A stretch of 64,000 nucleotides of DNA from Streptomyces sp. TSRI0281 (lineage in GTDB: Bacteria > Actinomycetota > Actinomycetes > Streptomycetales > Streptomycetaceae), in assembly GCF_001905125.1 (NCBI RefSeq), contig NZ_LWLE01000012.1:569918-633917 (forward strand), read 5' to 3'. The notes under the pieces were generated by a model. That model searched no databases, was not told the origin of the DNA, and was given only the letters and a program-made list of their open reading frames with translations. Shown piece after piece: positions 1 to 38,600 of the stretch. Position 1 is the stretch's first letter; each line of letters starts with the position of its first letter. The translations under genes were made by a program, and so were the position numbers.

Positions 1-1
1 C

Positions 2-1654
2 ATTGCCGCGGTACTTGTCGAGAAGGGGGTGCTGCCGGGCGATGTCGTGGCCGTCGCCTGCCCAAGGTCGTTCAACCTGATTGCCGGGATGCTGGGCATC
101 CTCAAGGCGGGTGCGGCGTACCTACCGATCGAGCAAGAACTTCCCGACGCCCGGGTGCGGGGAATGCTCCGTACATCCGGTGCCCGGGTGGTGCTGACCG
201 GCGGTGCGGGAGCCATGCGCGACTGGGCGGACCTCGGCGTGGTACAGGTGCCCGCAGGTGAGTGCACGCCTGGGCGGCAGGCGCCAGGAATTGCGGTCTC
301 TCCTACGGTTGCCGCCTATGTGCTGTTCACCTCCGGATCGACCGGGAAACCCAAGGGCGTTGTCTACCCCCATGCAGGCGCGGTGAACCGGCTGCGCTGG
401 CTCCAGGAGACGTACGGCCTCCGGCCGGGCGACCGGGTGATCCAGAAGACACCCTACGGATTCGACGTATCGTTCTGGGAGTTCTTCTGGCCGCTGTCCG
501 TGGGTGCCACCCTGGTTTTCGCCTCCGCGGGAGATCACCGGGATCCGGCCCGAGTGGCCGCACTGATCAGGGACGAGCGGATCACTGTCGCCCATTTCGT
601 TCCGTCGGTTCTGCGCATCTTCCTCGACCAGGAGGACGTGGCGGAGTTCACCTCCTCGCTCCGTCATCTGTTCGCCAGCGGAGAGGCACTCTCCCCCGAA
701 CTGGCGGAAGCTGTGCACCAGAAGCTGGGTATCCGGGTGGACAACCAGTACGGGCCCACGGAGTCGGGCGAGTGCACCTGGTGGACCTACCGGGAGAACC
801 ACGGCCATGCCTCGACACCCATCGGGGAAGCCATCCCGGGGTTCCGTACCTACGTCCTCGACGAGCACCTCGGGCGGGTTCCCGACGGTGAGGCCGGTGA
901 ACTCTTCCTGGGTGGCGACGGGAACCTCGCGCACGGCTACCTGGGGGAGCCTGCCCTCACGGCCCAGAAGTTTCTGCCGGACCCGTTCGGCCCACCCGGT
1001 GAGCGCATGTACCGGACCGGGGACCGGGTCAGGCACGACCCCGAGGCCGGGTTGTTGTACCTGGGCAGGACCGACAGTCAGCTGAAGCTGCACGGCAACC
1101 GCATCGAGACCGGGGAGGTGGAAGCCGCTCTCCGGAAGCTGCCGGGCGTCCGGGAGGCCGCCGTCAAGGTCGTGCCCGACGAGACCGGTGGACGGCTGGT
1201 CGGCTACGTGCTCACGGACTCGCCTTTCAGCCCCGGTGACGCACGGCGTCTTCTCGCCGAGACCCTCGTGGCGGCCGCCGTGCCCTCGCACTACGTGGTA
1301 CTGGACGAGTTCCCCGTGAACCGCAACGGCAAGCTGGACCGTGACGCCCTGCCCGTACACGCGCTCGATGCGGAGGCCGCGAACGGGTCCATGGACGGTG
1401 CCTCGGAGCTGCACGCCGCCGTCGCCGAAGTGTGGGCGGGAGTGACGGGCCGGTCACCGGTGTCGATCGATCAGGAATTCCTGGACTCGGGCGGCAATTC
1501 CCTCAAAGCGGTTCAACTCGTCGGTCGGCTACGCCGGCTGACCGGGCTCGACCTCACCGTGGAGGAGTTCTTCACGGCCGGCACCGTACGTTCCATCGCC
1601 ACAGTCCTCGAGCATCGGTTCGAGAACCTCGATTCCCCCGGGATACCGTCATGA
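2..1654 (+). CDS. NRPS, adenylation-PCP module (5' end outside window)
   Basis: Selects and activates an amino acid as its adenylate and loads it on the peptidyl carrier protein. The reading frame is open from base 2, so the gene begins upstream and any preceding domain is unseen. Adenylation motifs in order are TSGSTGKPKG (A3, about 310-365), FDVSFWE (A4), NQYGPTES (A5), YRTGD, and NGKLDR with the catalytic lysine. The carrier motif is DSGGNSLKAV (about 1485-1510). By alignment to the GrsA pocket I read the specificity positions as D-V-W-H-F-S-Q-E-C. The D-V-W-H-x-S part resembles serine codes, but Q322 and E330 do not, so I do not assign a substrate. Its stop overlaps the next start by ATGA, implying translational coupling. 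Confidence 0.93.
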   Translation: MAAVLVEKGVLPGDVVAVACPRSFNLIAGMLGILKAGAAYLPIEQELPDARVRGMLRTSGARVVLTGGAGAMRDWADLGVVQVPAGECTPGRQAPGIAVSPTVAAYVLFTSGSTGKPKGVVYPHAGAVNRLRWLQETYGLRPGDRVIQKTPYGFDVSFWEFFWPLSVGATLVFASAGDHRDPARVAALIRDERITVAHFVPSVLRIFLDQEDVAEFTSSLRHLFASGEALSPELAEAVHQKLGIRVDNQYGPTESGECTWWTYRENHGHASTPIGEAIPGFRTYVLDEHLGRVPDGEAGELFLGGDGNLAHGYLGEPALTAQKFLPDPFGPPGERMYRTGDRVRHDPEAGLLYLGRTDSQLKLHGNRIETGEVEAALRKLPGVREAAVKVVPDETGGRLVGYVLTDSPFSPGDARRLLAETLVAAAVPSHYVVLDEFPVNRNGKLDRDALPVHALDAEAANGSMDGASELHAAVAEVWAGVTGRSPVSIDQEFLDSGGNSLKAVQLVGRLRRLTGLDLTVEEFFTAGTVRSIATVLEHRFENLDSPGIPS

Positions 1655-4600
1655 GTGAGCCCCTGTCCCTGCTCGACCGGCTCCGGCAGGCACCACCCGC
1701 GGCCGGGTTCCCCAAGCGAAGGACGGCCGACCGGGCCCCGGCATCGGCGGCGCAGCGCCGGCTCTGGTTCCTCGCGGAAGCCGACGAGAGCACCGTTCCG
1801 TACCACGTGCCCGTGGCCTTCCACATCGACGGCCCATTGGATGCCGAGGCTTTGGAGCGCGGTGTCTCCCTGGTCGTCGAACGCCACGAGGCGCTCCGCA
1901 CAGCGCTGGTCGTCGACGCCGATGGCCTTCGCCAGGAGATATCCGAACCGTCGCCCGTTGTGGTTGAGCGCAGGAACGCGGAGTCCGTCGACGATTTCCT
2001 CGGTGCCGCGCACAAGGACGCCTGCGAGCCCGTCGACCTCTCCCGCGCGCCGCTGCTGCGGGTCCACCTCTACGCGCTTGCCGACGGCAGTCATGGGCTC
2101 TTGTTCGTCTTCCACCACACCGTGATCGACGCGTGGTCGCTCGACATCTTCTTCGGCGATCTCAACGCAGCGTGCGCCGACGTGGCCTTGCCGGCCGTAT
2201 CCCACCAGTATGGGGACTATGCCCAGTGGCAGGAGGGCTGGCTGTCCGGCGACGAGGCCCGGCGATCCCGGCAGTACTGGACAGGGGCGCTCGAAAAGGG
2301 GTACCCGCCCCTTTCCATCCATCCGCGTCGCAACCGTGCCGCCGGCGGCCCGCGTGGAGGTGCGATCCATCGGTTCGGTGTTCCCGCGGCACCGGTCGAG
2401 GAGGTCTCCTCCCAGGCTTCGGCGACGCCGTTCTCCGTCCTGTTGGCGGCCTTCCAGGCGCTGCTGCACCGCTACTCGCTGAATGATGTGGTGAGCACGG
2501 GGGTGCCGGTGGCCTGCCGGACGACCCCGGAGAGCGAGTCGATACTCGGCTACTTCGTCAACACCGTCGTCGTTCCCACCGAGTTCGACAAGGGAACCTC
2601 GCTCACGGATGTGGTCCGGAGTGTCGGGCAGCGCATGCGCGAGGCCCTGAGCCACCAGGAACTGCCCTTCGACGAGGTGGTGGGCGCCGTCGCACCACAT
2701 CGGAGCGCGGACGCGAACCCCCTGTTCGACTCCGTCTTCGTTATGCAGAACACGGAGTCGGCGACTACTCTCTCGCTGCCCGGCTGCAGGACGGAGCCGG
2801 TGCACGTCCACAACGGAACGGCGAAGTTCGACCTCACGCTATCCGTTGTCAGGGAATCGGACACGTTCACCTGCGAGCTCGAATACGCGACGGACACCTT
2901 CGACGCCGATTGGGCCGAGGAATTCGGCCTGGCATTCGGCGAAATGCTGCGCAGGGCGCCGGTTTCTCGTTCCCTTCCCGTCGGGGAAGCTCCGCTGCTC
3001 TCGGAGGAGACGAGGGCCGGAATCCTCCGGGACACCGCGCGGGGCGTGGAGCCCTACCGGATCGATGGGACCTTGCACGGCCTTGTCGTAGAACAGGCCG
3101 CCCGAACCCCTGACGCGACCGCGATCGTTGCGGACGGAGCGAACATCACCTATGCCGAACTGGACCGGCGATCCGACGCCCTGGCGGCTGTTATGGCCGA
3201 ACGAGGCATCGGCCGGGAGTCCGTCGTCGGTGTATGCATGCGGCGCTCGGTCGATCAGATTGTCTCGCTGCTGGCGATACTGAAGGCCGGCGGGGCGTTC
3301 GTGCCGCTCGACCCGCGCCTCCCGAGGGCACGTCTGGCGGGAATAGCCGATGACGCTTCACTCGCCCTCGTCGTGACCGACGAGCAGTGCCTCGACCTGC
3401 TCGACGGCCTGGCACCCCTGCTCGTCCCCGATGCGGAAACGGTTCCGGACGCTGTCCCGACTGCCCGCGCCACTGATCCGTCCGGCCTGGCCTACGTGTA
3501 CTACACGTCGGGTTCGACCGGTAAGCCCAAAGGCGTGGCCATCGATCATCTGTGCGCCGGGACCCGTCTGGAATGGCTGCGGCGCCGCTACGCGCTGGGC
3601 AGCGGGAAGGCGGTGCTCTACAAGACGCCGCTCATCTTCGACGTCGCGATCTGGGAGATCTTCCTCCCCCTCCTGACCGGTGCGACCGTCGTTATGGCGG
3701 ATGCCGAAGCCGAGTCCGACATCCAGCACATCGCGGACCTCCTGCGCGAACACCCCGTCGTGCTGGCGCACTTCGTGCCATCGATGCTGGAGGTCTATCT
3801 CGACGGAGTCGTCCCGCAGGAATACGCCCACCTCCAGTGGGTCGCGCTCAGCGGAGAGGCCGCTTCGGCCGCCCTGATCGAGCGGGCCGCGGAGCACTTC
3901 GGCGTGCCCGTGCACAATCAGTACGGCCAGACCGAGACCTCCGAGGTCGCTGTAGGGGAAGGCGACGGTGACTCCCTCCCCGAACTGTCGGTCATCGGCA
4001 CGCAGGTGGGTGCCTACCGGCTCTATGTGATGGACGCGTCGCAGGAACTGGTTCCCCACGATGTGCCGGGCGAGCTCTGCGTGGCCGGCCTGGACGGCCT
4101 GGCCCGCGGCTACGTGGGCAGGCCGAGCCTCACCGCGCAGAGCTTCGTTCCCCACCCGTACCCGGCGCGGCCGGGCGAACGCCTCTACCGCACCGGGGAC
4201 CTGGTCCGACGCCGAGCCACCGGTGAGATCGTCTATCTGGGCCGTGGCGACCACCTGGTGAAGATCCGGGGCTGCCGGGTGGAGACCGGTGAGGTCGAGA
4301 GCGTTCTCCTGGACCACCCTGCCCTCACCTCCTGCGTGGTGATCGCGCGTCCCGGACCGGGCGGTGACCTCTGCCTGGTGGCCTACACCGTCGGGCGGGA
4401 GGCCGGGCGCGCGGAGCTCGTCGGCCACGCCGCGTCCAGCTTGCCCTGGTACATGGTTCCGAGTGCGTTCGTCCACCTCGGCGAAATGCCACGCACGGCG
4501 AGCGGAAAGATCGATCGAAACCGGCTGCCCGAACCGCGGCTCTCCGATTTCGAGGAGGAGAGGCCCTGGGAGGAACCGCAGACGCCTCTGGAGACTCATC

Positions 4601-4842
4601 TCGCCGCTGTGTGGTCGGAGGTGCTGGGGATCCGGAAAGTCGGCCGCCGCGACGGCTTCTACGCCCTGGGCGGCAACTCGCTTCAGACCACGCGCGTGCT
4701 GGCGACGCTCAAGGCGTCATTCGAGATCCGGCTGTCGGTCCGGGACTTCATGCACGCCCCCACAGTGGAAGGGCAGGCACGGTTGGTGATGGCTGCCCTG
4801 GAGAAGAAGGCTGCCGCACTGCTGGAGGAGAACGGCGCATGA
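1651..4842 (+). CDS. NRPS, condensation-adenylation-PCP module
   Basis: An elongation module of 1063 residues. The condensation domain spans about residues 30-440, with active-site motif HHTVIDAW near 155 (the usual HHxxxDG has Ala in place of Gly). The adenylation domain spans about 470-960 with YTSGSTGKPKG, FDVAIWE, NQYGQTET, YRTGD and SGKIDR. The carrier domain near 1000-1060 carries LGGNSLQTTR. Specificity positions read as D-V-W-H-A-S-Q-E-V. They share H278, S301, Q322 and E330 with the upstream module, so the two pockets probably take related substrates. No epimerase or methyltransferase domain is seen. The start is the ATG inside the ATGA overlap with the upstream gene; an in-frame GTG far upstream lies within that gene's carrier domain and is rejected. 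Confidence 0.94.
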   Translation: MSEPLSLLDRLRQAPPAAGFPKRRTADRAPASAAQRRLWFLAEADESTVPYHVPVAFHIDGPLDAEALERGVSLVVERHEALRTALVVDADGLRQEISEPSPVVVERRNAESVDDFLGAAHKDACEPVDLSRAPLLRVHLYALADGSHGLLFVFHHTVIDAWSLDIFFGDLNAACADVALPAVSHQYGDYAQWQEGWLSGDEARRSRQYWTGALEKGYPPLSIHPRRNRAAGGPRGGAIHRFGVPAAPVEEVSSQASATPFSVLLAAFQALLHRYSLNDVVSTGVPVACRTTPESESILGYFVNTVVVPTEFDKGTSLTDVVRSVGQRMREALSHQELPFDEVVGAVAPHRSADANPLFDSVFVMQNTESATTLSLPGCRTEPVHVHNGTAKFDLTLSVVRESDTFTCELEYATDTFDADWAEEFGLAFGEMLRRAPVSRSLPVGEAPLLSEETRAGILRDTARGVEPYRIDGTLHGLVVEQAARTPDATAIVADGANITYAELDRRSDALAAVMAERGIGRESVVGVCMRRSVDQIVSLLAILKAGGAFVPLDPRLPRARLAGIADDASLALVVTDEQCLDLLDGLAPLLVPDAETVPDAVPTARATDPSGLAYVYYTSGSTGKPKGVAIDHLCAGTRLEWLRRRYALGSGKAVLYKTPLIFDVAIWEIFLPLLTGATVVMADAEAESDIQHIADLLREHPVVLAHFVPSMLEVYLDGVVPQEYAHLQWVALSGEAASAALIERAAEHFGVPVHNQYGQTETSEVAVGEGDGDSLPELSVIGTQVGAYRLYVMDASQELVPHDVPGELCVAGLDGLARGYVGRPSLTAQSFVPHPYPARPGERLYRTGDLVRRRATGEIVYLGRGDHLVKIRGCRVETGEVESVLLDHPALTSCVVIARPGPGGDLCLVAYTVGREAGRAELVGHAASSLPWYMVPSAFVHLGEMPRTASGKIDRNRLPEPRLSDFEEERPWEEPQTPLETHLAAVWSEVLGIRKVGRRDGFYALGGNSLQTTRVLATLKASFEIRLSVRDFMHAPTVEGQARLVMAALEKKAAALLEENGA

Positions 4843-7800
4843 GCGAGCACCTCACCGGGTCCGCCTCCCGCCAGGAGCAGCTGGTGGCCGAGCTGCTCGC
4901 GCAGGGGCTGGGCCGGACGACCACCGGAGCCGGAGCCGGAACGCACACCGTGGGGCCTCTGTCGGTCGCCCAGCGTCGGCTGTGGTTTCTCGAACAGCTG
5001 AAGCCAGGGACAGCCACCTACAACATTGCCCTGATGGCGGAGCTGCACGGGACGCCGTCCCAGAACGCCCTCCAGGACGCCCTGCACATCGTGCAGGACC
5101 GGCACACTGTCTTGCGCTGCCGCTTTACCGAGCAGGACGGTGAACCCCGGCAGGAGGTCGTGCAGGGCGAGGGCGTTCCCCTCGCCTGGCACGACCTGCG
5201 GGCCCCGTCCGCGGACACGGACCCCGACGAGACGGCACGCCGGATCGCCGCGGACTGCGCCAAGCGTCCCTTTCGGCTGGACGACGCACCACTCTTCCGG
5301 TGCGCGGCCGTCCTTCTTCCCGATGACCGCTGGCACCTCGTGCTGTGCTTCCATCACATCGTCGTGGACGGCTGGTCCGTTGGCGTCCTTCTCGATGACC
5401 TGGGCACCCTGCTGAGCGGCGGCAGCCTCGGCCCGGTTCCGTCCTTCCGGTTCCTCGACTGGGTGGCCGAGACCTCCGGGCAGTCGCTCGATCCCGAGGA
5501 CGAGGCGTACTGGGCCAAGAAGCTGTCCGGTGCCCCGGCCGTGCTGACTCCGTTCAACGACGCCCCGCGCCGGCCGTCGGAGCACGCCGCTGGCAAGCTC
5601 ATGAGTTTCGTCGTCCCGGCTCCCACGGTCTCCGCCGTGGAGCGGCTCGCCGAGTCGGCCGGTACGACCACCTTCGTGGTACTCCTGTCCGCGTTCAAGG
5701 TGCTGTTGCAACGGGTGGCCGGTGTGGACGATGTGGTGGTCGGCGCACCGTTCGCAGGACGCCCCGACCCTCGCCTCGACAACGTCGTCGGCTTCTTCGT
5801 CAACACACTTCCGTTGCGCACCGAGTTGGCCGGCGCCCGGGCCTTCCGAGACGTTCTGGAGCGGGTGCGCGTCACGGTCATGGAAGCGCAGGACCACCAG
5901 GACACGCCGTTCGACCGCATCGTCGAACTCCTCGGACTCAGCGGGGCCACATCGGAGAGCGCGTTGTTCCGCACCATGCTGGCCTGGCAGAACACTCCGG
6001 GCGGACAGCTGCGGTGGGAGGGGAGGACGGTCGCTCCCACGCATCTGGACACCGGCACGGCCAAATTTGACCTGACGCTCTCGCTGGAGCAGACGGACGG
6101 TGTGATCGAGGGGCAGGCCGAGTGGTTCCTCGGGTTGGCGGATACGGCGTTCGTGGAGGGGTTCGTCCACGCCTACCTCCAGTTGCTCCGCTCGCTCTCC
6201 GAGGGGCCGGACGCCCAGTTGGCCGAGCACGCGCTGACCGGTCCCCGTGACGAGGAATCGGTCGTCCCGCCTGCCGCCTCGCCCCGGCCGACGGTGCCGT
6301 ACCGGACCCTCAGCGAGCCCTTCGGAGAGCAGGCGCGGCGGACACCGGATGCCGTGGCGCTCCTCGGTGACGAGGGGACGCTCACCTACGCACAACTGTG
6401 GGAGAGAGTCGAGCGGTTCGCCGCCGGCCTGTATGGGTGCGGTGTGCGGCCCGGCGACAGGGTGGGCGTGCTCATGCAGCGCTCCTTCGACATGGTTGCC
6501 GCCCTGCATGCGGTGTGCGCGATCGGCGCGGCCTATGTCCCCCTGGACCCCTCGGCTCCGCGGGAACGTCTCCACGGCATGCTGTCGACGCTGGACATTT
6601 CCCACGTCACGGCCCATGGCGCGACCGCTGACAAGGTGCCCGACGGCCCTTGGGGTGTTGTGCGCACGGAGAGCCTGGCGGATCCGGACGCGGCAGTGGA
6701 TGTTCATCCGGACGCTGCCGCCGACGCGCTGTCGTCGGAGCGTACGGCCTACGTGCTGCATACCTCAGGGTCCACGGGACGGCCAAAGCCTGTTGCCTAT
6801 CCCACTGACGCGTCGTTGGCCTTTCTCGGCTGGCTCCAGGGCCTGATACCGGTGGGCCCGGGTGATCGCCTCCTCCTCAAGACGCCCTACGGCTTCGACG
6901 TGTCCGTGTGGGAGCTCTTCTGGCCCCTCCAGCATGGGGCCACGATCGTGGTGGCGGACCCTGACGGCCACCTGGACCCGAGCTATCTCGCGCGCTTCGT
7001 CCAGCGGCATGAAGTGAACGTGGTCAATTTCGTCCCTTCGATGCTGGAGAGCTTCCTGGGGCAACTCGACGCCGTCGGCTGCCCTTCACTGAGCCATGTG
7101 CTGTCTGCCGGTGAGGAGCTCAAGCCGGGGCTGGTGGCCCTGACCCACCGGAAGCTCAAAGCCGAACTGATCAATCTGTACGGGCCCACCGAGGCCGGCG
7201 CAGTGAGCTACCACCTCACCCGGCCCGGGGCCATGGGGACCGTACCCATCGGTCATCCGCTGCCTTACGTACGCCTGTACGTGCTCGACGCCGACTTGCG
7301 GCCGGTGCCTGTGGGTATGCCTGGAGAGCTGTACATAGCCGGCGAACTGGGGCTGGCCAACGGTTACGAGGGCAGTCCCGCTGCCACGGCGGAGAAGTTT
7401 CTCCCGGACCCCTACAGCAGAGTGCCGGGCGGCCGGATGTACCGCACCCAGGACATCTGCCGACAACTGCCGGGAGGCGAACTGGAGTACCTCGGCCGGA
7501 GCGACCGGCAGGTGAAGCTGAGAGGGATCCGTCTGGAACCTGCGGAGATCGAACAGGCGATGCTGGCGTCGGCCGAGGTCGCCGCCGCCCGCGTGCTGGC
7601 GACGGGGAGCGGATCCGAACAGAAACTGATCGGTTTCTATGTGCCGGTGGAGGGTGCCGCACCCGATCCGCGCGCTCTGCACAGTCATCTGGAGCACCGG
7701 CTGCCGCGGAACATCATCCCGTCCGCCCTGGTGGAGGTGGAGACCATCCCCACCACCCCGAACGGCAAGACGGACCAAGCCGCACTGACAGCTGTCTGGA

Positions 7801-8828
7801 AGGAAAGGCAGCAGACCGCAGGTTCTGGGCGACTGACGGGGGACACGGGCAGGAGGCCGAAGCCGGCCGACGGTTCGCTGGAGGCTCGGGTGTGTGCCGT
7901 CTTCGAGAACGTCCTGGAGATCCCGTCGGCCGATCCTGACACAGGCTTCTTCGCCATGGGCGGGCACTCCCTCCAAGTACTCAAGCTCACGGCTGCGTGC
8001 AAGGAGCGCCTGGGCATCAAGCCGTCCGTGGCGACGATCTTCGCCCACCCCACACCGCGAGAACTCGCCGCATGGATCAGCGAGACGGCGAGCAGTGAGC
8101 AGGACATGGTCGTTCCGCTGGCGCCACGGGAGGACGGGCCGCTGGTCATCGGCGTGCACGCGGCCACGGGTTCCGCACTGCCGTACCTTCCGCTCAGCCG
8201 CGCGCTGGCGGACCGCTGTTCCTTCCTCGGACTGCAGGCGCCCGGTCTGGAGTCGGATGCCAGGACTCCCCGTTCGGTGGAGGAGTTCATCGCGGTCTAC
8301 CTTCCGCTCGTCGAGCGACTGGCCGCCTCACGACAGCTGGTGCTGACGGGCTGGTCCTTCGGTGGCAACGTCGCCTACGAACTCGCCGCGGCGCTCGACC
8401 GCCGTGGACGTGCTCCTCTGGCCACGGTCCTCATCGACTCCTGGATCGGGGACAGCCTGGAGGACATCGCAGGGGATACCCCCGAGGAAGCGGTGGGCAC
8501 GCTGCGTCGGCACGGGCTGGTGCCGGACGGACTCCCCAGTGAGACGGAGACCGGGATGCTGCGGGTGCTGGCCGGGACCTTGAAAGCCTTTCATGCCTAC
8601 CGGCCGGCCCGGTCGGAACTGGTGGTCGACCTCGTCAGGGCCACGGCGGATGGAGCGGAGAGCCCCTACCCACGGCAGATACGGGAATCCGCCGACCGCG
8701 GAATCGGAGCCTTCGCCAAGGCGGTCCGTATCCACAACGTCGACGCGGACCACTACAGCGTGATGTCCGGAGACCATGAGGCAACGCTGGCTGCGATCTT
8801 CGAGAGCATTCTGTGCGAGCACACATGA
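4839..8828 (+). CDS. NRPS termination module, C-A-PCP-thioesterase
   Basis: The last module of the line, 1329 residues. The condensation domain has a canonical HHIVVDGW near residue 173. The carrier domain near 1045 has MGGHSLQVLK. The C-terminal type I thioesterase (about 1095-1329) has nucleophile GWSFGG and a late His in DADHYSV. It releases the peptide by hydrolysis or cyclisation. The adenylation domain departs from consensus: A3 reads SGSTGRPKPV (Gly to Pro), the usual YRTGD is YRTQD, and the GEIE-type motif is PAEIE. The A10 lysine (NGKTDQ) is kept. Specificity positions read D-V-W-N-L-A-L-A-V, unlike the other two modules. The start overlaps the upstream stop (ATGA), and its own stop overlaps the exporter start the same way. 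Confidence 0.94.
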   Translation: MSEHLTGSASRQEQLVAELLAQGLGRTTTGAGAGTHTVGPLSVAQRRLWFLEQLKPGTATYNIALMAELHGTPSQNALQDALHIVQDRHTVLRCRFTEQDGEPRQEVVQGEGVPLAWHDLRAPSADTDPDETARRIAADCAKRPFRLDDAPLFRCAAVLLPDDRWHLVLCFHHIVVDGWSVGVLLDDLGTLLSGGSLGPVPSFRFLDWVAETSGQSLDPEDEAYWAKKLSGAPAVLTPFNDAPRRPSEHAAGKLMSFVVPAPTVSAVERLAESAGTTTFVVLLSAFKVLLQRVAGVDDVVVGAPFAGRPDPRLDNVVGFFVNTLPLRTELAGARAFRDVLERVRVTVMEAQDHQDTPFDRIVELLGLSGATSESALFRTMLAWQNTPGGQLRWEGRTVAPTHLDTGTAKFDLTLSLEQTDGVIEGQAEWFLGLADTAFVEGFVHAYLQLLRSLSEGPDAQLAEHALTGPRDEESVVPPAASPRPTVPYRTLSEPFGEQARRTPDAVALLGDEGTLTYAQLWERVERFAAGLYGCGVRPGDRVGVLMQRSFDMVAALHAVCAIGAAYVPLDPSAPRERLHGMLSTLDISHVTAHGATADKVPDGPWGVVRTESLADPDAAVDVHPDAAADALSSERTAYVLHTSGSTGRPKPVAYPTDASLAFLGWLQGLIPVGPGDRLLLKTPYGFDVSVWELFWPLQHGATIVVADPDGHLDPSYLARFVQRHEVNVVNFVPSMLESFLGQLDAVGCPSLSHVLSAGEELKPGLVALTHRKLKAELINLYGPTEAGAVSYHLTRPGAMGTVPIGHPLPYVRLYVLDADLRPVPVGMPGELYIAGELGLANGYEGSPAATAEKFLPDPYSRVPGGRMYRTQDICRQLPGGELEYLGRSDRQVKLRGIRLEPAEIEQAMLASAEVAAARVLATGSGSEQKLIGFYVPVEGAAPDPRALHSHLEHRLPRNIIPSALVEVETIPTTPNGKTDQAALTAVWKERQQTAGSGRLTGDTGRRPKPADGSLEARVCAVFENVLEIPSADPDTGFFAMGGHSLQVLKLTAACKERLGIKPSVATIFAHPTPRELAAWISETASSEQDMVVPLAPREDGPLVIGVHAATGSALPYLPLSRALADRCSFLGLQAPGLESDARTPRSVEEFIAVYLPLVERLAASRQLVLTGWSFGGNVAYELAAALDRRGRAPLATVLIDSWIGDSLEDIAGDTPEEAVGTLRRHGLVPDGLPSETETGMLRVLAGTLKAFHAYRPARSELVVDLVRATADGAESPYPRQIRESADRGIGAFAKAVRIHNVDADHYSVMSGDHEATLAAIFESILCEHT

Positions 8829-10132
8829 AAGCGGGTGAGGAAGAACCGACCGCAGGGAGGAGGCGCTCACGACGACACCTATGGGTCAGGCCCGCCCCCC
8901 TGACTCTGGTGGTGGCCCTACAGCTCACCATGGGCACCGCCTGGTGGATGGCACTGGTCGCCAACCAGGCGCGGGCGACCTACGAACTGGGTGCGACGGA
9001 GCTGTACCTCGCCCTGGTGGCCACGGTCTGGGGCGCCCCCACCATCCTCCTGGGGCCGTGGATAGGACGTCTGGCCGATCTGTACAGTCCCGCCGTTGTG
9101 GGGGCGGCGAGCACTGCCGTCGGTATCGGCGGGGCGGTCGGCCTTGCCGTCGCGGACTCGGCGCAGTGGTTGCTCGTGGCGGCCTTGACCAGCGGAGTGG
9201 CCAGGGCGGTCACCCAGGTTGCCATCGACGCATTGCCCAGCAGGGTGCTGGGGAGCAACCAAGAAGTGAAATCGAGCATTCTGCTGGGCTTCGCCAGCAG
9301 CGTTCCCATCGTCGCCGGCCCCACCCTGTCGGCTGTCATGCTGGCGAACTGGGGCAGCAACAGCGCCCAGTGGGCGAACGCGGCCGTCCATCTGGTCGGA
9401 TTGGCGATCTTCTGCGTGCTGCGGGTTGATGTGCCCTCCCGCAGCAGGGACAGGGACCCTGATGCGGGCGGCCGTCACCGGAGCCTCATCAGAGACCCGT
9501 CGCTGCGTGAGGCACTGGTGTTGACGGGCATGGTCTGGGTATCCCTGGGCTGGATCGGCCCGTTGGAGATTCTCTTCGTCAGCGAGGTGTTGTCCGAGCC
9601 GGCCGAGACGTACGCGGCTCTCCAAGTAGCCTTCGGAGTCGCGCTCCTGGCGGCGACGTACGTGATGTCGAAGGGGCAGACTCTCGTCGTCCGCCGTTGG
9701 TTCTTCGTCATGACCGTGGTGCTCGTCGGCGCCGGGGAATCCCTGTTCGCCTCTTCCCACAGTGTGGGCATGGCATTCGCTGCCATCTCCCTCTGGGGAA
9801 TGGCAGCGGGTCTGTTCAACCCTGCGAGCAGGATCGCCTTCCTCAAGGCCGCTCCTGCGGAGATGCACGGACGCGCCATGGGGCTCTGGAGGGCAGTTCA
9901 GTCCTTCGGCAGCCTGGCCCCCCCGATTCTTGCCGGTGTCGTCGCACATGCCTACGGACTGCGGACGGCCATGCTCGGCATGGGTGTCTGCACTCTGTTG
10001 GCCGCAGCGGTGGTGCTCGGGATCTCCGCTCGGCGTGGGACACGCGGAGGGCGGTCGGCAGCACGGGCGGCGGGCGACGCGCGAGCGGATGAGGAGGGCA
10101 TCGGGTGCACCGACGAGCTTCAGAGCCGCTGA
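8825..10132 (+). CDS. MFS transporter, probable exporter of the NRPS product
   Basis: An integral membrane protein of 435 residues with about 12 hydrophobic segments, typical of major facilitator superfamily drug/metabolite exporters. A basic N-terminal tail (RRRSRR) precedes the first membrane helix. The conserved loop after helix 2 reads GRLADLYSP, the usual MFS loop 2-3 region. The start is the ATG at 8825 inside an ATGA overlap with the NRPS thioesterase gene. A GTG 12 bases upstream is in frame, but the overlap pattern of the three preceding genes favours the ATG. Tight coupling to the NRPS suggests export of, or self-resistance to, the peptide. That role is inferred from position. Confidence 0.87.
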   Translation: MKAGEEEPTAGRRRSRRHLWVRPAPLTLVVALQLTMGTAWWMALVANQARATYELGATELYLALVATVWGAPTILLGPWIGRLADLYSPAVVGAASTAVGIGGAVGLAVADSAQWLLVAALTSGVARAVTQVAIDALPSRVLGSNQEVKSSILLGFASSVPIVAGPTLSAVMLANWGSNSAQWANAAVHLVGLAIFCVLRVDVPSRSRDRDPDAGGRHRSLIRDPSLREALVLTGMVWVSLGWIGPLEILFVSEVLSEPAETYAALQVAFGVALLAATYVMSKGQTLVVRRWFFVMTVVLVGAGESLFASSHSVGMAFAAISLWGMAAGLFNPASRIAFLKAAPAEMHGRAMGLWRAVQSFGSLAPPILAGVVAHAYGLRTAMLGMGVCTLLAAAVVLGISARRGTRGGRSAARAAGDARADEEGIGCTDELQSR

Positions 10133-10169
10133 CAACCGCATTCAAATCAAGACGTATCGGAGGCGTTCG

Positions 10170-11021
10170 ATGCTGTCCCCTGTGGAAACCATGAATTCTA
10201 GATCGGAGCGGGGAATGTTCCGTACGGCCAAACCACACCGACTGCTGATGTGCCGCCCCCGGCACTTCGACGTCGTCTACTCGATCAACCCATGGATGGC
10301 ACCGGAGAAGCCGGTCGACAACGGCCTGGCGGTGCGTCAGTGGGAGGAGCTTCGCCAGCTCTACACGCACCTTGGGCACACCGTTGAGGTAGTGGAGCCC
10401 GTCCCCGGTCTCCCGGATATGGTCTTCGCTGCGAACGGTGCCACCGTCGTCGACGGAAAGGTCCTGGGCGCCCGATTCCGGCATGTCGAGCGCACGGCCG
10501 AAGGGCCCGCCTATCTGAACTGGTTTCTGCAGAACGGCTACGAGGACGTCTTGTGGCCGGAGTTCATCAATGAGGGAGAAGGCGACTATCTGACCGTCGG
10601 CCGCAGAATCCTGGCCGGCACGGGCTTCCGTACGGACTCCAGGTCGCACGCCGAAGCTCAGGAATTCTTCGGGCTTCCGGTCACGGGGCTGACCCTGGTC
10701 AACCCGAGGCATTACCACTTGGACACCGCCCTGGCCGTACTCTCCGATACCGAAATCATGTACTATCCGGCAGCGTTCACGACCGGCAGCCAGGCAGTTC
10801 TGAAGGAGATGTTCCCGGACGCCGTCATCGCGTCGGACGAAGACGCCGCGGTGTTCGGACTCAACGCCTTTTCGGACGGTCGGAACGTTCTTCTGCCCGA
10901 GGGTGCCACCGGTCTGACTCTGCAGTTGGAGAAACGGGGTTTCAGCCCCGTCGGAGTGGACGTATCGGAACTTCTCAAGGCCGGCGGCAGCGTCAAGTGC
11001 TGCACGCTGGTGCTTCGCTGA
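10170..11021 (+). CDS. Dimethylargininase / arginine-deiminase-like hydrolase
   Basis: A 283-residue member of the guanidino-group modifying (amidinotransferase/DDAH/deiminase) superfamily. Family members hydrolyse arginine or N-methylarginines to citrulline through a covalent Cys intermediate. Visible landmarks are MCRPRHFDVVYSINPWM near the N-terminus, the catalytic His in YHLDTAL, and the catalytic Cys near the C-terminus in GGSVKCCT. All parts of the active site appear intact. A CGGAGG ribosome binding site 6-7 bases upstream supports the ATG at 10170; a second in-frame ATG lies 21 bases downstream. It sits 37 bases after the exporter gene and is probably in the NRPS operon, where it could supply citrulline or another ureido amino acid. 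A housekeeping dimethylargininase is the alternative. Confidence 0.82.
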   Translation: MLSPVETMNSRSERGMFRTAKPHRLLMCRPRHFDVVYSINPWMAPEKPVDNGLAVRQWEELRQLYTHLGHTVEVVEPVPGLPDMVFAANGATVVDGKVLGARFRHVERTAEGPAYLNWFLQNGYEDVLWPEFINEGEGDYLTVGRRILAGTGFRTDSRSHAEAQEFFGLPVTGLTLVNPRHYHLDTALAVLSDTEIMYYPAAFTTGSQAVLKEMFPDAVIASDEDAAVFGLNAFSDGRNVLLPEGATGLTLQLEKRGFSPVGVDVSELLKAGGSVKCCTLVLR

Positions 11022-11048
11022 CCCACACGCCAATAGGGAGGCTAAATC

Positions 11049-11651
11049 ATGAGTACCAACCGCGAACTGCTCATGCTGGATTCCGTCCTGATGATCGACG
11101 GACCCGATGACGGGCCCTACTCCGCAGAGGAGATCGACAGGGTGGTTGAGCTCTGCGAGAAGCTGCCGCGCGATGTAGGAATCGGCGACAACAACAATGT
11201 CGAGGTCGGACGCATAGTCGTCGACTCCTTCGACATCGCCATGTCCGATTCCACCTCCGCACCGCATAAGGTGGCAGCGCCGGACATCGCCGAGGAGATC
11301 CTTCAGATCATTGCCAAGAGTGAGGCAATGGCCTATTGGGGCGAGCTGTGTGGCCACAAGGTGTCCGTGCGGCGGTCGCAGGTCAACTACATGCAGCGTG
11401 GCCAATACATAGGACGTCACACCGACTCGGAAGCGAACCCGGAGTACTGCGCCAACGTCGTCATCGGTCTCAGTGATGACTACACCGGGGGCGAGTTTGT
11501 GGCTCACATGGACAGCGAGCAGCCCAGACGGTTCGTCCTTCGCCGCGGCTCGATTCTCGTCGGCACCAACGACCTGCTGCACGAAGTGAGCGAAGTGAGT
11601 TCCGGTGTACGTGGTTCGCTGGTCATGTTCCTGGTACCCGAAGGCCAGTGA
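11049..11651 (+). CDS. 2-oxoglutarate/Fe(II)-dependent oxygenase
   Basis: A 200-residue protein of the prolyl-4-hydroxylase-like (PKHD-type) oxygenase fold, which couples decarboxylation of 2-oxoglutarate to C-H hydroxylation. The iron triad is visible: HxD in GRHTDSE near residue 120, and the distal His in LLHEVSE near 180. The Arg that binds the oxoglutarate carboxylate lies about ten residues later in GVRGSL. An AGGGAGG ribosome binding site sits 7 bases before the ATG. It directly follows the arginine-family hydrolase, so a role in hydroxylating an amino acid precursor or the carrier-bound residue is likely. The substrate is not visible from sequence. This is the last intact gene of the NRPS block; mobile-element debris starts just after it. 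Confidence 0.8.
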   Translation: MSTNRELLMLDSVLMIDGPDDGPYSAEEIDRVVELCEKLPRDVGIGDNNNVEVGRIVVDSFDIAMSDSTSAPHKVAAPDIAEEILQIIAKSEAMAYWGELCGHKVSVRRSQVNYMQRGQYIGRHTDSEANPEYCANVVIGLSDDYTGGEFVAHMDSEQPRRFVLRRGSILVGTNDLLHEVSEVSSGVRGSLVMFLVPEGQ

Positions 11652-11734
11652 CTCCTTCTCATCCTGGCCGGGGGCAATGACACGTTCGGCTGTTGGCGGA
11701 CTCACTCGTCGAGCAGAGGTGAGGCGTCCGTAGG

Positions 11735-11965
11735 GCGGGAGCCGGCGTCGGGCCGCTGATCGTGAAGCTCTGGCCGGGGTCGTCTTCGTGGCCACCTCGG
11801 GCTGTACATGGCGGCAGCTTCCGACAGTGTTTCGGTCCGGCCCGGCGGACGGTCTACCGGCGGATCGCGCAGTGGAGCCTGGACCGGGTTCGGGCTCGGC
11901 TCCACCGCGTGGTCCTGGACGAACGCGGTGCCCGGGGCGAGATGCGACTTCGTGCCCCGAGGGGC
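11735..11965 (+). pseudogene. IS5-type transposase, N-terminal fragment with frameshift
   Basis: Two adjoining frames reconstruct the start of an IS5-family transposase. One reads ATSGCTWRQLP; the next picks up RRTVYRRIAQW and LHRVVLDERGARG. In related transposases these motifs are continuous, so a frameshift lies near 11840. The DDE catalytic part is absent. The stretch 11652-11735 and the bases from 11965 to 12195 show no gene that I can support. Confidence 0.6.
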
Positions 11966-12530: not shown

Positions 12531-13300
12531 GAGTTGTAGGCGGGAGCAGATGTGCGTCCGTGGGCACCAGGTCGGCCTTCGCGATACGGACCGTTGCCTC
12601 CGCGCCGCCCTCTGATTCCGGGTCGTACGGCACGCAACTGACCACTTGGCAGCCGTAATGCCGGCCGGCGGCAACCCCTGCGTATGCCGCACTGGGGTTC
12701 CGGCGATGTGCTCGACGGTGACCGTCTTCGCGTTGTCGGTCAGCGCATAAGTCGGTGACCCGCCGATCCGGCGCAAGGTCGTGTCCAGAGAGGCCACCAG
12801 TGTGCCCAACGTGCCATCCCAGACCGGGATCACTACCCGGAACCGCGACCACGACAGCCACGCGCAGAACAGCCGGGTCCGACGCCTATCGATGCGGGGC
12901 CCTCTCCCCGGTCGAACTGCAGCCGGCGGCCCGGCTCGGGAACCCACGGCCGGTAGGTGCGGCGCTTGCCCGCCTTCCACGCCATCTTCGCCGAGTTCAC
13001 CGCCCGCCTCGTCGAGCGTGCGCTGCCCAGGTAGCCCATCGTCACTTGCTTCTCGTGGACCACATCGGCGCGGATCGTCGCCTTCGACTGCTCAACCCAT
13101 TCCTCGACCTTCTTCAGGAACGTGTCGATCATCTTCGGCCGCGGCTCTCGTTCATAGGGATCGCGCCCGCTGGCACGGGCTTCGACGAACCGCTTGACCG
13201 TCTTCGGGTCGTGTCTCGCCAAGGTCGCCGCTGACCGGACGGTCCCGGTCAGGTCGTACGCCTCAAGGATTTCCATGATCTCTTTGTCGGACTTCGTCAC
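12531..13300 (-). pseudogene. istA: IS21-family transposase istA, frameshifted and truncated
   Basis: The start is the GTG at 13300 with GGAGG four bases upstream; the protein opens TKSDKEIMEILEAYDLTG, a typical IstA beginning with helix-turn-helix. After about 145 residues the frame breaks. The following parts appear in other frames: WDGTLGTLVASLDTTLRRIG and YALTDNAKTVTVEH, then VSCVPYDPESEGGAEATV and ADLVPTDAHLL. The C-terminal part and the partner ATPase gene istB are missing. At least two frameshifts and a 3' deletion make it inactive. The deletion joins it to the VOC fragment. Confidence 0.8.
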
Positions 13301-13354
13301 ATGTCCTCCAGGCTTCACAGTTTCGCGATCACTCCTGCGTGATCATGAGCACCA

Positions 13355-35178: not shown

Positions 35179-35677
35179 TCCTTCCCACGGATGGCCTTCG
35201 CCCTCGACTTCCCGCAGATTCTCGCAGAGCGATCACGGTTTCACGAGGCGGTGTGCTCCGCAGCGCTTCTCCCTGCCGCAACGACCATGCCGCTGGGGCG
35301 CCGGCCATCGTGGTCGTCGCCACGGTCCCGGTACAGGGACGGTGGCGCCGGGGTGGCCATGCCGCCCGCCGCAGGTACGGCATTGACGCGTCAACCACCT
35401 GCGTACGCGAGCGGGTGGTCCGCCGTGCACGTTGACTGAGCACCCGCATGGCAGCAACCGCCCCTGGAACTGGGCATCGGCCCGGGGCATTCCTGTCGGC
35501 GGCGACCGGGCCGGTGGGCCGGACCCGGGCCCGATGGTGGGGGCCGACCGGTGAAGAGTGTCCAAGGTCGCGGGAAAGCTGAGGGAGGGACCCGAAGTGG
35601 TCCGCCCGTCGCCGGGAGGCAACCCGGTGAACTGTGCGGTCGTCCTCAACGACGGGTCATCTCAAGGAGGTCATACG
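35179..35677. other. Upstream region of the PKS gene
   Basis: About 500 bases without a supportable gene. The PKS ribosome binding site AAGGAGG (35664-35670) is at its end. No clear promoter was recognised. Confidence 0.45.
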
Positions 35678-38600
35678 GTGGGTACGCACGCCGACGTCGT
35701 CACATCACTGCCGGAACTGCTCAAGAACCACGCCCGGCGCCTGGGGGACAAGGTCTGTTTTCAGGACCGGCTCAGGCATGTGACCTACCGGGAGCTGGAA
35801 CGGAGGACCGCGCGGCTGGCCGGTCACCTTGCAGACCTCGGCCTGGCGCGCGGCGACCGGGTGGCCGTACTGCTCGGCAACCGCGTCGAGGCGGTCGAGA
35901 GCCTGCTCGCCGTCACCCGGGCAGGCGGCGTGGGCGTACCTCTGGACATCGGGAACTCGGAGGCGGAGCTGACCCGCTTGCTGGATGACAGCGGGGCGCG
36001 GGTGCTCATCACCGATGGCGTCTGCCTGACGCGGCGGCCGACGCCGGCAGTGCGACCCGGACTGACCGTGGTGGTGGCCGAAGGCGGAGACGAGGACGGG
36101 GCCGAGGACGGGTCCAGGGCCGAGGACGGGGCCGGGGACCGGCTCGCCACGGGTGCGGAAGGTGTTCTGCGGTACGAGGAGTTGGCGGGCACGGAGCCGC
36201 AATCGCCGGCCCGGGACGATCTCGGACTGGACGAAGTGGCCTGGCTGCTCTACACCTCGGGCTCCTCCGGCGTACCCAAGGGCGTCCTGTCCACTCAGCG
36301 CAACCGCCTCTCGACGGTCGCGACGGGGCTCGTCGGCGTCCTGGGACTGTCCGAACGGGACCGTGTGCTGTGGCCGTTGCCCCTCCACCACGCGATGAGT
36401 CAGGTGGTGTGTTTCCTCGGGGTGACCGCGGTGGGGGCGAGCGCGGTGCTGCTGCCCCGGTTCTCGGTGGCGGAGGTGCTCGGCGAACTGCGCGAGGAGG
36501 ATGCCTCGTTCACCTTGCTCGGCGGGGTCCCCACGACGTATTCGGCGTTGCTCGACGCGGTCCGGGGCGAGCGGAGCGGCATCGACGGCGGCAAGGCCGG
36601 CGGCGGTCTCGGCGCCCCCGCGCTGCGGGGTTGCGTCAGCGCCGGCGCCGCGGCGGGGCCCGGGTTCCGCGAGTCCTTCGAGGCCATCTGCGGTGTCCCC
36701 TATCTGGAGCACTACGGCAGCACGGAGGCGGGCCCGGTCACCATGCCGGCGCCGGGCGAGGCGATCGTGTCCGGGGCGTCCCGGGCGTGGGGCCGGGTGC
36801 TGCCCGGCACCCGGGTCCGGGTCGGCGGAGGCCCCGACGGCCGGGACACGGGTGAGGGCGAGCTGTGGGTCAACGGGCCCGGGGTCATGGTCGGATACCA
36901 CGGCAGGCCGGAAGCGACCGCGGAGGTACTGCGCGACGGCTGGTTCCGCACGGGTGACCTGGCCAGGATCGATGCCTTCGGTGGGCTGGCCATCACCGGC
37001 CGGGCGAGTGATCTGATCATTCGAGGCGGGGTGAACATCCACCCTTCCGAGGTGGAGGCGGTGTTGCGGCGGCTGCCGGGGGTGGCGGACGCAGCTGTGG
37101 CCGGGCGCCCGCACTCCGTCTTCGGCGAGGTGCCGATCGGCTATCTGGTCCCCGAGCCCGGTGGCGCCGTGCTGGACAGGGGACGCGTCCTCGCCGCCTG
37201 CCGTGCGGAGCTGTCCGGCTTCAAGGTCCCCGTCGAGCTGTTCGAGGTGGCGGAGATTCCCCGTACCGCCTCCGGGAAGACCCTGCGGCGCAACCTCGCG
37301 GACCTGCCCGCGCGGGCGCTGGTCGCGGCGGCCACCGGAAAGCCGTCGGAGGACCTGCTGGCCCTGGTGCGGAACGAAGTGGCGGCCGTGCTCGGCTGTG
37401 CGCCCCAGGCGGTGGAGCCGAGCACGGCACTGCGGGACCTGGGCATGGACTCCCTGACGGCGACAGTGCTGCGGGAGCGGCTGTCGGCCGTCACCGGCCT
37501 GCCGCTCTCCGAGGCCGTCGCCTTCGACTTTCCCACGGCTGCCGCACTTGCCGACCACCTCGGTTCACAGAACGCCGCCGCGCCGTCCGGCACCGGGCCC
37601 GTGAACCGGAGCGCGGCCCGGCCGGACGGCGACCCCGTGGTGATCGTGGGGATGGCATGCCGCTATCCCGGAGGCGTGACCTCTCCCGAGGAACTGTGGC
37701 GGTTGGTGGCCGACGGGAGGGACGCCATCGGTCCCTTCCCCACCGACCGGGGCTGGGACGCCGAGGCGCTGTACGACCCGGATCCGGGGCGGCCCGGACG
37801 GACGTACGTGCGCGAAGGCGGTTTCCTCTCCGGTGCGGACCGCTTCGACCCCGGCTTCTTCGGAATCTCTCCCCGCGAGGCGCTGGCCATGGACCCGCAG
37901 CACCGGCTGCTGCTCGAAGTGGCGTGGGAGGCCTTCGAGCACGCCGGTCTCGTCCCCGACGCCCTGCGCGGTTCGGCGACCGGGGTGTACGTCGGGCTGA
38001 TGTACAGCGACTACGCCCGCCATCTGACAAGGACGCCCGAGCATGTCGAGGGCTACCTCGGCCTCGGCAACGCCGGAAGCGTCGCCTCCGGTCGTATCGC
38101 CTACACCTTCGGTCTCGAAGGCCCGGCCCTCACCGTGGACACGGCGTGTTCCTCGTCCCTGGTGGCGCTGCACCTGGCGGCCCAGGCGCTGCGCCGGGGC
38201 GAGTGTGCCTACGCGTTGGCCGGTGGCGCCACGGTGATGTCGGGACCCTCATCGTTCGTGGAGTTCAGCCGCCAGCGGGCGCTGTCCCCGGACGGCCGCT
38301 GCAAGGCGTTCGGCGCGTCGGCCGACGGCACCGGGTGGGCCGAGGGGGCCGGAATGCTGCTGCTGAGCCGGTTGTCCGAGGCACGCCGCGCCGGACTTCC
38401 GGTACTGGCCGTGGTGCGCGGCTCGGCGGTGAACCAGGACGGGGCGAGCAACGGGCTGACCGCACCGCACGGACCGGCGCAGCAGCGGGTGATCCGGCAG
38501 GCCCTCGTCGACGCGGGCCTGAATGCCGGAGACATCGACGCGGTGGAGGCGCACGGCACCGGCACCCGGCTGGGGGACGTCATCGAGGCGGAGGCCTTCT

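Follow-up and report, generated by a model that had tools for sequence, protein, structure and literature searches.

An eight-gene peptide synthetase unit in Streptomyces with a fused N-oxygenase/FMN_bind_2 protein and a possible N-oxygenated, ornithine-derived residue

Layout and conservation of the eight-gene unit

The 9.6-Mb genome of Streptomyces sp. TSRI0281 (38 contigs; hereafter G000 or the source genome) carries a compact nonribosomal peptide synthetase (NRPS) unit at the left edge of the stretch analysed here, a window of 64,000 nucleotides spanning positions 569918-633917 of contig NZ_LWLE01000012.1 (C12). The unit comprises eight genes on one strand and begins at C12:567654, 2,264 bases left of window base 1, with a protein in which an ornithine/lysine N-monooxygenase is fused to an FMN_bind_2 domain; this fusion is followed by MbtH, three NRPS genes, a major facilitator superfamily (MFS) exporter, an arginine-family hydrolase and a 2-oxoglutarate (2OG)-Fe(II) oxygenase. 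We propose, tentatively and with a confidence a little short of even, that the unit builds a tripeptide containing an N-oxygenated, ornithine-derived residue. The named domains of the window genes score above their Pfam cut-offs at the places listed below, where A, T, C and TE denote adenylation, thiolation, condensation and thioesterase domains, A1 to A3 the adenylation domains of NRPS1 to NRPS3, and ORF an open reading frame.

C12:567654-569537, left of the window, plus strand: N-monooxygenase/FMN_bind_2 fusion, 627 amino acids (Pfam)
C12:569581-569760, left of the window, plus strand: MbtH (Pfam)
Window 1..1654 (longest frame C12:569703-571571), plus strand: NRPS1, A-T loading module (Pfam); A1 code DVWHFSQECK
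Window 1651..4842 (ORF 1432-4842, likely ATG 1651), plus strand: NRPS2, C-A-T (Pfam); A2 code DVWHASQEVK
Window 4839..8828 (ORF 4611-8828, likely ATG 4839), plus strand: NRPS3, C-A-T-TE (Pfam); A3 code DVWNLALAVK
Window 8813..10132, plus strand: MFS exporter (PF07690, 94 bits)
Window 10170..11021 (ORF 9762-11021; start 10170, 10191 or 10215), plus strand: dimethylargininase/arginine-dihydrolase-like hydrolase (NF045659, 445 bits)
Window 11049..11651, plus strand: 2OG-Fe(II) oxygenase, 200 amino acids (PF13640, 35 bits; cut-off 27)
Window 11652..11917, no strand: right border of the unit; DNA similarity to the copy in a second species (G149) stops at 11917

The 5′ end of NRPS1 lies beyond the window edge: its longest frame begins 215 bases before base 1, with an alternative start at C12:569760, where an ATG overlaps the stop codon of MbtH. 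The core motifs are unbroken: each of the three T domains has GGxSL, each of the two C domains has HHxxxD, and the TE has GWSFG. Three modules and a terminal TE point to a tripeptide, linear or cyclised, and the product would be all-L because no epimerase domain was found in the three modules. The Pfam matches and intact motifs confirm what the initial annotation had described from the window alone, namely three modules, an exporter, a hydrolase and a 2OG oxygenase lying head to tail. Inspection of the sequence left of base 1 revealed MbtH and the fusion, so that the earlier frame was too short on that side; the observation is right and its interpretation, incomplete because the window edge cut off these two genes, is partly supported.

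All eight genes are collinear in two further genomes, G019, which a genome search assigned to the same species as the source (91.5-95.7% protein identity), and G149, which represents a second species (89.5-93.7%). A single DNA match of 14,846 bases at 92.4% identity joins the source to G149, covering C12:567036-581834 (window -2881 to 11917), and the G149 flanks (about 2.5-2.7 kb fetched on each side) are unlike the source flanks apart from one short piece. Base composition marks the unit off on the left side only: in 1-kb steps, the G+C fraction of the unit is 0.58-0.70; over the 10 kb on its left it is 0.67-0.77, and on its right 0.66-0.71. We take the unit to be transferable, a judgement made mainly from synteny. 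The linear plasmid NZ_CP108509.1 (1,601,525 bases) of Streptomyces sp. NBC_01237 carries the fusion; in that strain the unit is on a megaplasmid.

The fused protein and its family

The N-terminal half of the fusion matches the full Lys_Orn_oxgnase domain (PF13434, 305 bits, model positions 2-338 of 339), and its nearest solved relatives are MbtG (319 bits), KtzI (296) and PvdA (284). Within the same 627-residue frame, the C-terminal half matches FMN_bind_2 (140 bits), the fold of PaiB and piperazate synthases, and its nearest solved relatives are PaiB (121 bits), 9qlk (90.5; labelled an FMN-binding regulator in the PDB), NohD (87.2) and the piperazate synthase PipS (85.5). It is the sole FMN_bind_2 match in the source genome at 0.001. 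The fused domain retains the heme-ligand His and the neighbouring Asn (His61 and Asn66 of SbPZS), with FGHLDAGN aligned to LGHMNRAN, together with the Thr102 and Lys173 marks (PTWN and FKLSQ).

To place the fused domain, we built a 75-row tree, in which PipS and 40 other rows, 9qlk among them, form one clade with NohD as its sister (99/93). The closest neighbours of the fusions there are three unfused PaiB-like proteins from the marine bacteria Marinobacter, Croceitalea and Allomuricauda. The fusions are not one strict clade, as unfused marine proteins branch from within them; the fusion label needs two changes, and 32% of bootstrap trees allow one. Around the three marine PaiB-like genes, tblastn with the unit proteins and inspection of ORF lists by eye found no NRPS or N-oxygenase. 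We had considered a piperazate synthase identity from similarity alone, and dropped it once the tree placed the fusions outside the synthase clade.

We think it possible, if on balance doubtful, that the fused domain is a second, independently evolved heme enzyme that forms N-N bonds or converts N-O groups in another way, recruited from PaiB-like proteins, and that with its help the unit turns ornithine obtained from arginine into a tripeptide that is hydroxylated and contains a hydrazine, the A-domain pockets that read it (Q322/E330) being absent from specificity codes. Several observations weigh against the main reading, in which the unit makes an N-oxygenated, ornithine-derived residue, perhaps L-piperazate. 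The top score of the N-oxygenase half is to MbtG, a lysine enzyme, KtzI and PvdA being ornithine enzymes. The fusions lie across a 100/99 branch from the piperazate synthases in the 75-row tree, and the same split is supported at 89/93 in a 35-row tree, a chosen subset of the earlier rows to which a Mycetohabitans sequence was added, the position of that long-branched row being unsure. Using marker residues taken from excerpts of PMC13274692 and PMC10888640, and a Tyr150 place set by our own alignment, we found Arg at the places of Tyr150 and Lys178, Arg rather than Met before FKLSQ and Asp rather than Glu after it; PipS likewise lacks Lys178, and at the Glu place two other fusions vary only between Asp and Glu. 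PaiB, too, has the four residues that the fusions retain (His, Asn, Thr and Lys), and according to the excerpted text of PMC13274692 it binds heme and has no N-N bond-forming activity; as read from the alignment, the kept His and Asn do not discriminate piperazate synthase from PaiB. Two distant homologues (34% and 25% identical to KtzT) rejected N5-hydroxyornithine, as excerpts of PMC12150314 report. Elsewhere in the unit, the hydrolase fails the arginine-dihydrolase model NF052232 (188 bits against a cut-off of 450). The piperazate-loading A domains PlyF-A1, PlyG-A1, KtzH-A1 and HmtL-A1 share the code DVFS[VI][AG][APS]YAK (PMC3943440, in part); they would be the expected readers of a piperazate monomer, but A1-A3 of the unit all have codes other than this published one.

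Other fates of the hydroxylated amine were weighed. An unlikely one is that N5-hydroxyornithine is the monomer as it stands, remaining a hydroxylamine, a hydroxamate or a cyclic hydroxamate; the PaiB-like half would then protect against the hydroxylamine or tune it, and the peptide would act as a metal ligand. Family N-oxygenases serve siderophores, MbtG and PvdA presumably among them, and the properties of PaiB given above fit such a role. Among the eight genes, however, Pfam finds neither an acyl- or formyltransferase nor a siderophore uptake gene; no A code of the unit resembles DMENLGLINK, which we take to be a hydroxyornithine-type code and which occurs at another locus of the source genome (L196); and the fusion of the two halves suggests that they share one substrate.

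Equally concerned with the C-terminal half, and rather improbable, is the idea that it is a dehydratase turning N-hydroxyornithine into an imine or cyclic imine used by the assembly line. NohD scores about as close as PipS, NohD and the fusions both have Arg at the synthase Tyr150 place, and excerpts of PMC11705231 describe dehydratase activity of PipS on other substrates. The tree nevertheless puts NohD sister to the synthases and not to the fusions, and the role of NohD is known from its PDB name alone (N-hydroxylamine dehydratase), none of the papers listed by a literature search naming it. As a separate candidate, suggested by an arginine enzyme next to an N-oxygenase, we rejected the graminine/diazeniumdiolate route, since neither a GrbD-type nor a GrbE-type protein is present among the eight genes by Pfam; the excerpted PMC11705231 describes GrbD as combining heme-oxygenase-like and cupin parts and relates GrbE to arginine hydroxylases.

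The preferred reading, an N-oxygenated, ornithine-derived residue made by the fusion, also draws on the distribution of the fusion. We searched overlapping samples of 392 genus and 394 class genomes; in the genus search for the fusion three candidates were scored per genome, and its figures apply among the matches listed. Full-length fusions occur in at least 5 of the 392 genus genomes (G000, G019, G149, G245 and G204), tblastn added a sixth (G005, residues 3-621), and 2 of the 394 class genomes have one at 1e-100 (G000 and G643). A scan of named genomes found fusions in S. spinosus, S. sp. SolWspMP-5a-2, Amycolatopsis coloradensis, Micromonospora tulbaghiae, S. clavifer (the same sequence as in G245) and S. 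murinus. The stretch fetched beside the fusion has NRPS matches in all six, and neither the source hydrolase nor the source 2OG gene has a match at 1e-5 in these stretches. The A codes next to other fusions, read for L051, L052, L054, L055 and L060 only and in part, are DIQFAAH (L051, L052 and L060), presumably Pro-like, and DVFWLGG (L054 and L055), presumably Val-like. PipS, by comparison, finds matches in 69 of the 392 genus genomes at 1e-12, the source genome included, and in 16 of the 394 class genomes at 1e-35; among its long-frame matches outside this fusion family, none has an in-frame N-oxygenase half.

One earlier report bears on the family. Hu et al. in 2019 reportedly showed that fused KtzI-KtzT chimeras make piperazate; these too join an ornithine N-monooxygenase and a domain of the FMN_bind_2 fold in one protein. 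They probably belong to the present family, because no other type of N-oxygenase fusion was seen among the matches listed for the genus and class genomes. If they do, the fused domain would be a convergent piperazate synthase.

Three observations concern relatives of the fusion. In L146 (G212) and L147 (G262), a domain of the piperazate-synthase clade is followed in frame by an A domain (open frames of 745 and 826 residues), a different type of fusion. At L050:9895-11736 (G204), the C-terminal domain is degenerate, having lost the heme His and PTWN, and nearby ORFs look by eye like carbamoyltransferases and ABC transporters. On a Mycetohabitans endofungorum plasmid (L188:10907-18451), the N-oxygenase and FMN_bind_2 proteins are separate overlapping genes, in a run that also has a 4-hydroxyphenylacetate 3-hydroxylase, an aromatic-ring dioxygenase and a diaminobutyrate transaminase, possibly a route to another N-N or N-O compound; this locus, the one examined of seven Mycetohabitans records among the matches, has no gene annotated as NRPS in the 32 kb read.

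Adenylation pockets, arginine hydrolase and a related cluster

Pocket codes were read from a 45-row alignment anchored on a serine-type A domain and containing 44 different A domains, all from the source genome. These are all of its A domains above the TIGR01733 cut-off (30 loci including A2 as L114, 12 further, A1 and A3). Within this set, A1, A2 and A3 are each nearest, at 41.8-46.4% identity, to three A domains coded DVWH[FIL]SLVDK, which we take to be a serine code, and all three lack its Asp331. The alignment bears out the initial annotation in that H278, S301, Q322 and E330 are common to modules 1 and 2. A literature search on the unit codes (in part) and on the serine and piperazate codes found no paper for the unit codes.

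The hydrolase passes the dimethylargininase model NF045659 (cut-off 300), and its closest solved relative is the cyanobacterial arginine dihydrolase ArgZ (Sll1336, 6jv0; 155-158 bits). Aligned with the catalytic residues of ArgZ, both the hydrolase and a 61% identical paralogue elsewhere in the genome show the same Asn, His and Cys, and two ArgZ structures deviate from the others at precisely that Asn and that Cys. The Asn is said, in work by Zhuang et al. from 2020, to decide dihydrolase activity. Unlike ArgZ, the hydrolase stands alone, with about 268-283 residues, and passes the dimethylargininase model only. As judged from these features, it could convert arginine either to ornithine or to citrulline, and an extra hydrolase gene besides the paralogue fits precursor supply. 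The 2OG enzyme has the HxD...H...R motif (HTD at 124, H178 and R188), and its nearest solved relative is 6n1f; a second 2OG model, PF13532, stays below its cut-off. Homologues at 1e-12 occur in 4 of 199 genus genomes (G000, G019, G149 and G046).

The last of these, a Streptomyces genome, contains a related cluster (locus L190), of which we read the first 20 kb of a 30.3-kb contig, with codes read by eye from the alignment. It has homologues of MbtH (44-46%), NRPS2 (44%), NRPS3 (44%) and the 2OG oxygenase (48%), the last directly after the NRPS3 homologue, and an MFS gene too. Its A2 code, DIWHISQEVK, keeps H278, S301, Q322, E330 and V331, and its A3 code is that of the unit, DVWNLALAVK. The fusion, an A-T loading gene and an arginine hydrolase were all absent from these 20 kb, and no N-oxygenase match at 1e-50 was found in G046 among the matches listed; the cluster differs further by PhyH, LeuA-like and lone A-domain genes. 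On this comparison, modules 2 and 3 together with the 2OG oxygenase seem to form a core to which the fusion, NRPS1 and the hydrolase were apparently added. This suggests that the N-oxygenated residue, if formed, is residue 1, selected by A1, and that E330 of A2 may not be a sign of an arginine enzyme. That the A1 and A2 pockets resemble each other counts to some extent against separating core and addition so sharply.

This cluster bears directly on the explanation from which the analysis started, that the hydrolase makes citrulline (or acts on methylarginine), that modules 1 and 2, by way of their E330 pockets, take up a ureido or cationic residue, and that this residue is hydroxylated by the 2OG oxygenase. 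The hydrolase does lie inside the unit with its family catalytic residues, A1 and A2 both have the acidic E330, and 2OG hydroxylation of citrulline is known for GE81112. Yet such a scheme leaves the N-oxygenase that opens the unit without a job, and G046 retains both the E330 pocket and the 2OG gene with no hydrolase match in the 20 kb read; we consider the scheme quite improbable. The initial annotation holds in part. Hydrolase and 2OG oxygenase share one unit with the modules in three genomes, and the peptide may plausibly carry a modified residue that is cationic or hydroxylated; we found no evidence for a ureido group; citrulline remains a conceivable product of the hydrolase, to which the fused N-oxygenase gives another natural job, the supply of ornithine; and the proposed tie between the E330 pocket and an arginine enzyme is weakened by G046.

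Two A domains elsewhere in the source genome have partly piperazate-like codes, L095 (C12:546037-547233; DVFSVGITYK) and L110 (C31:7118-8365; DVFSLAVVYK), and the fusion is the only FMN_bind_2 match able to supply them. The place of the fusion beside NRPS1-3 might be incidental, with the protein acting in trans for a different assembly line of the source genome. This idea would fit the standing of the fusion as sole match and the DVFS start of both codes, which share part of the piperazate code, but is highly unlikely given that the fusion recurs in the company of MbtH and NRPS1-3 in a second species, where the flanks differ, and that similar fusions elsewhere also adjoin NRPS genes. A second ornithine/lysine N-oxygenase lies outside the window beside a long NRPS with the code DMENLGLINK (L196; G000:C15:74914-91891), perhaps a hydroxamate siderophore cluster.

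Proposed route and surroundings of the unit

On the favoured reading of an N-oxygenated, ornithine-derived residue, the hydrolase would convert arginine to ornithine, and the N-terminal half of the fusion, whose family assignment is clear, would hydroxylate the side-chain nitrogen of ornithine, its presumed substrate. The FMN_bind_2 half, probably heme-binding, would then take N-hydroxyornithine as its substrate and most likely form the N-N bond that gives L-piperazate; this is the weakest step of the scheme. NRPS1 would load the first residue, NRPS2 and NRPS3 would add one each, and the TE would release the all-L tripeptide, as the observed domains predict. The 2OG oxygenase may hydroxylate the residue of module 2 or 3, because its gene travels with these modules, and the MFS protein would export the product.

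The cluster is, as predicted from its genes, a variant of the N-oxygenated-ornithine/piperazate-type NRPS clusters, with the fused-enzyme chemistry as its testable point; among the papers that literature searches listed, with MIBiG outside the comparison, none was recognised as describing the eight genes. According to excerpts of PMC10888640, the diperamycin (dpn) cluster likewise combines NRPS genes with an ornithine N-oxygenase and a KtzT-like enzyme, and an amidinotransferase is proposed there to make ornithine from arginine. It differs in its 66.5 kb, its polyketide synthase, its six NRPS modules and its separate N-oxygenase and synthase genes, whereas the present unit has eight genes, three modules and a fusion. 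If the fusion forms an N-N bond, the reaction would have been invented at least twice on one fold, making a residue-by-residue comparison possible; if it does otherwise, N-hydroxyornithine would have a new fate. The small size of the unit, eight genes on one strand, makes it practical for expression, and the A-domain code would be enlarged by its A1 and A2 pockets.

Three features surround the unit. Right beside it, an ORF at window 12833-13318 (minus strand) resembles by eye the N-terminal part of an IS21-type transposase and has no Pfam hit. Further right, at window 35558-44269 (plus strand), a 2903-amino-acid open frame contains an adenylation-type domain (TIGR01733, 181 bits, under the cut-off) and appears to be a large synthase-like gene. 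Left of the window, at G000:C12:541923-544752, ORFs resembling by eye adenosine phosphosulfate (APS) kinase and sulfate adenylyltransferase adjoin other NRPS genes, perhaps pointing to a sulfated product.

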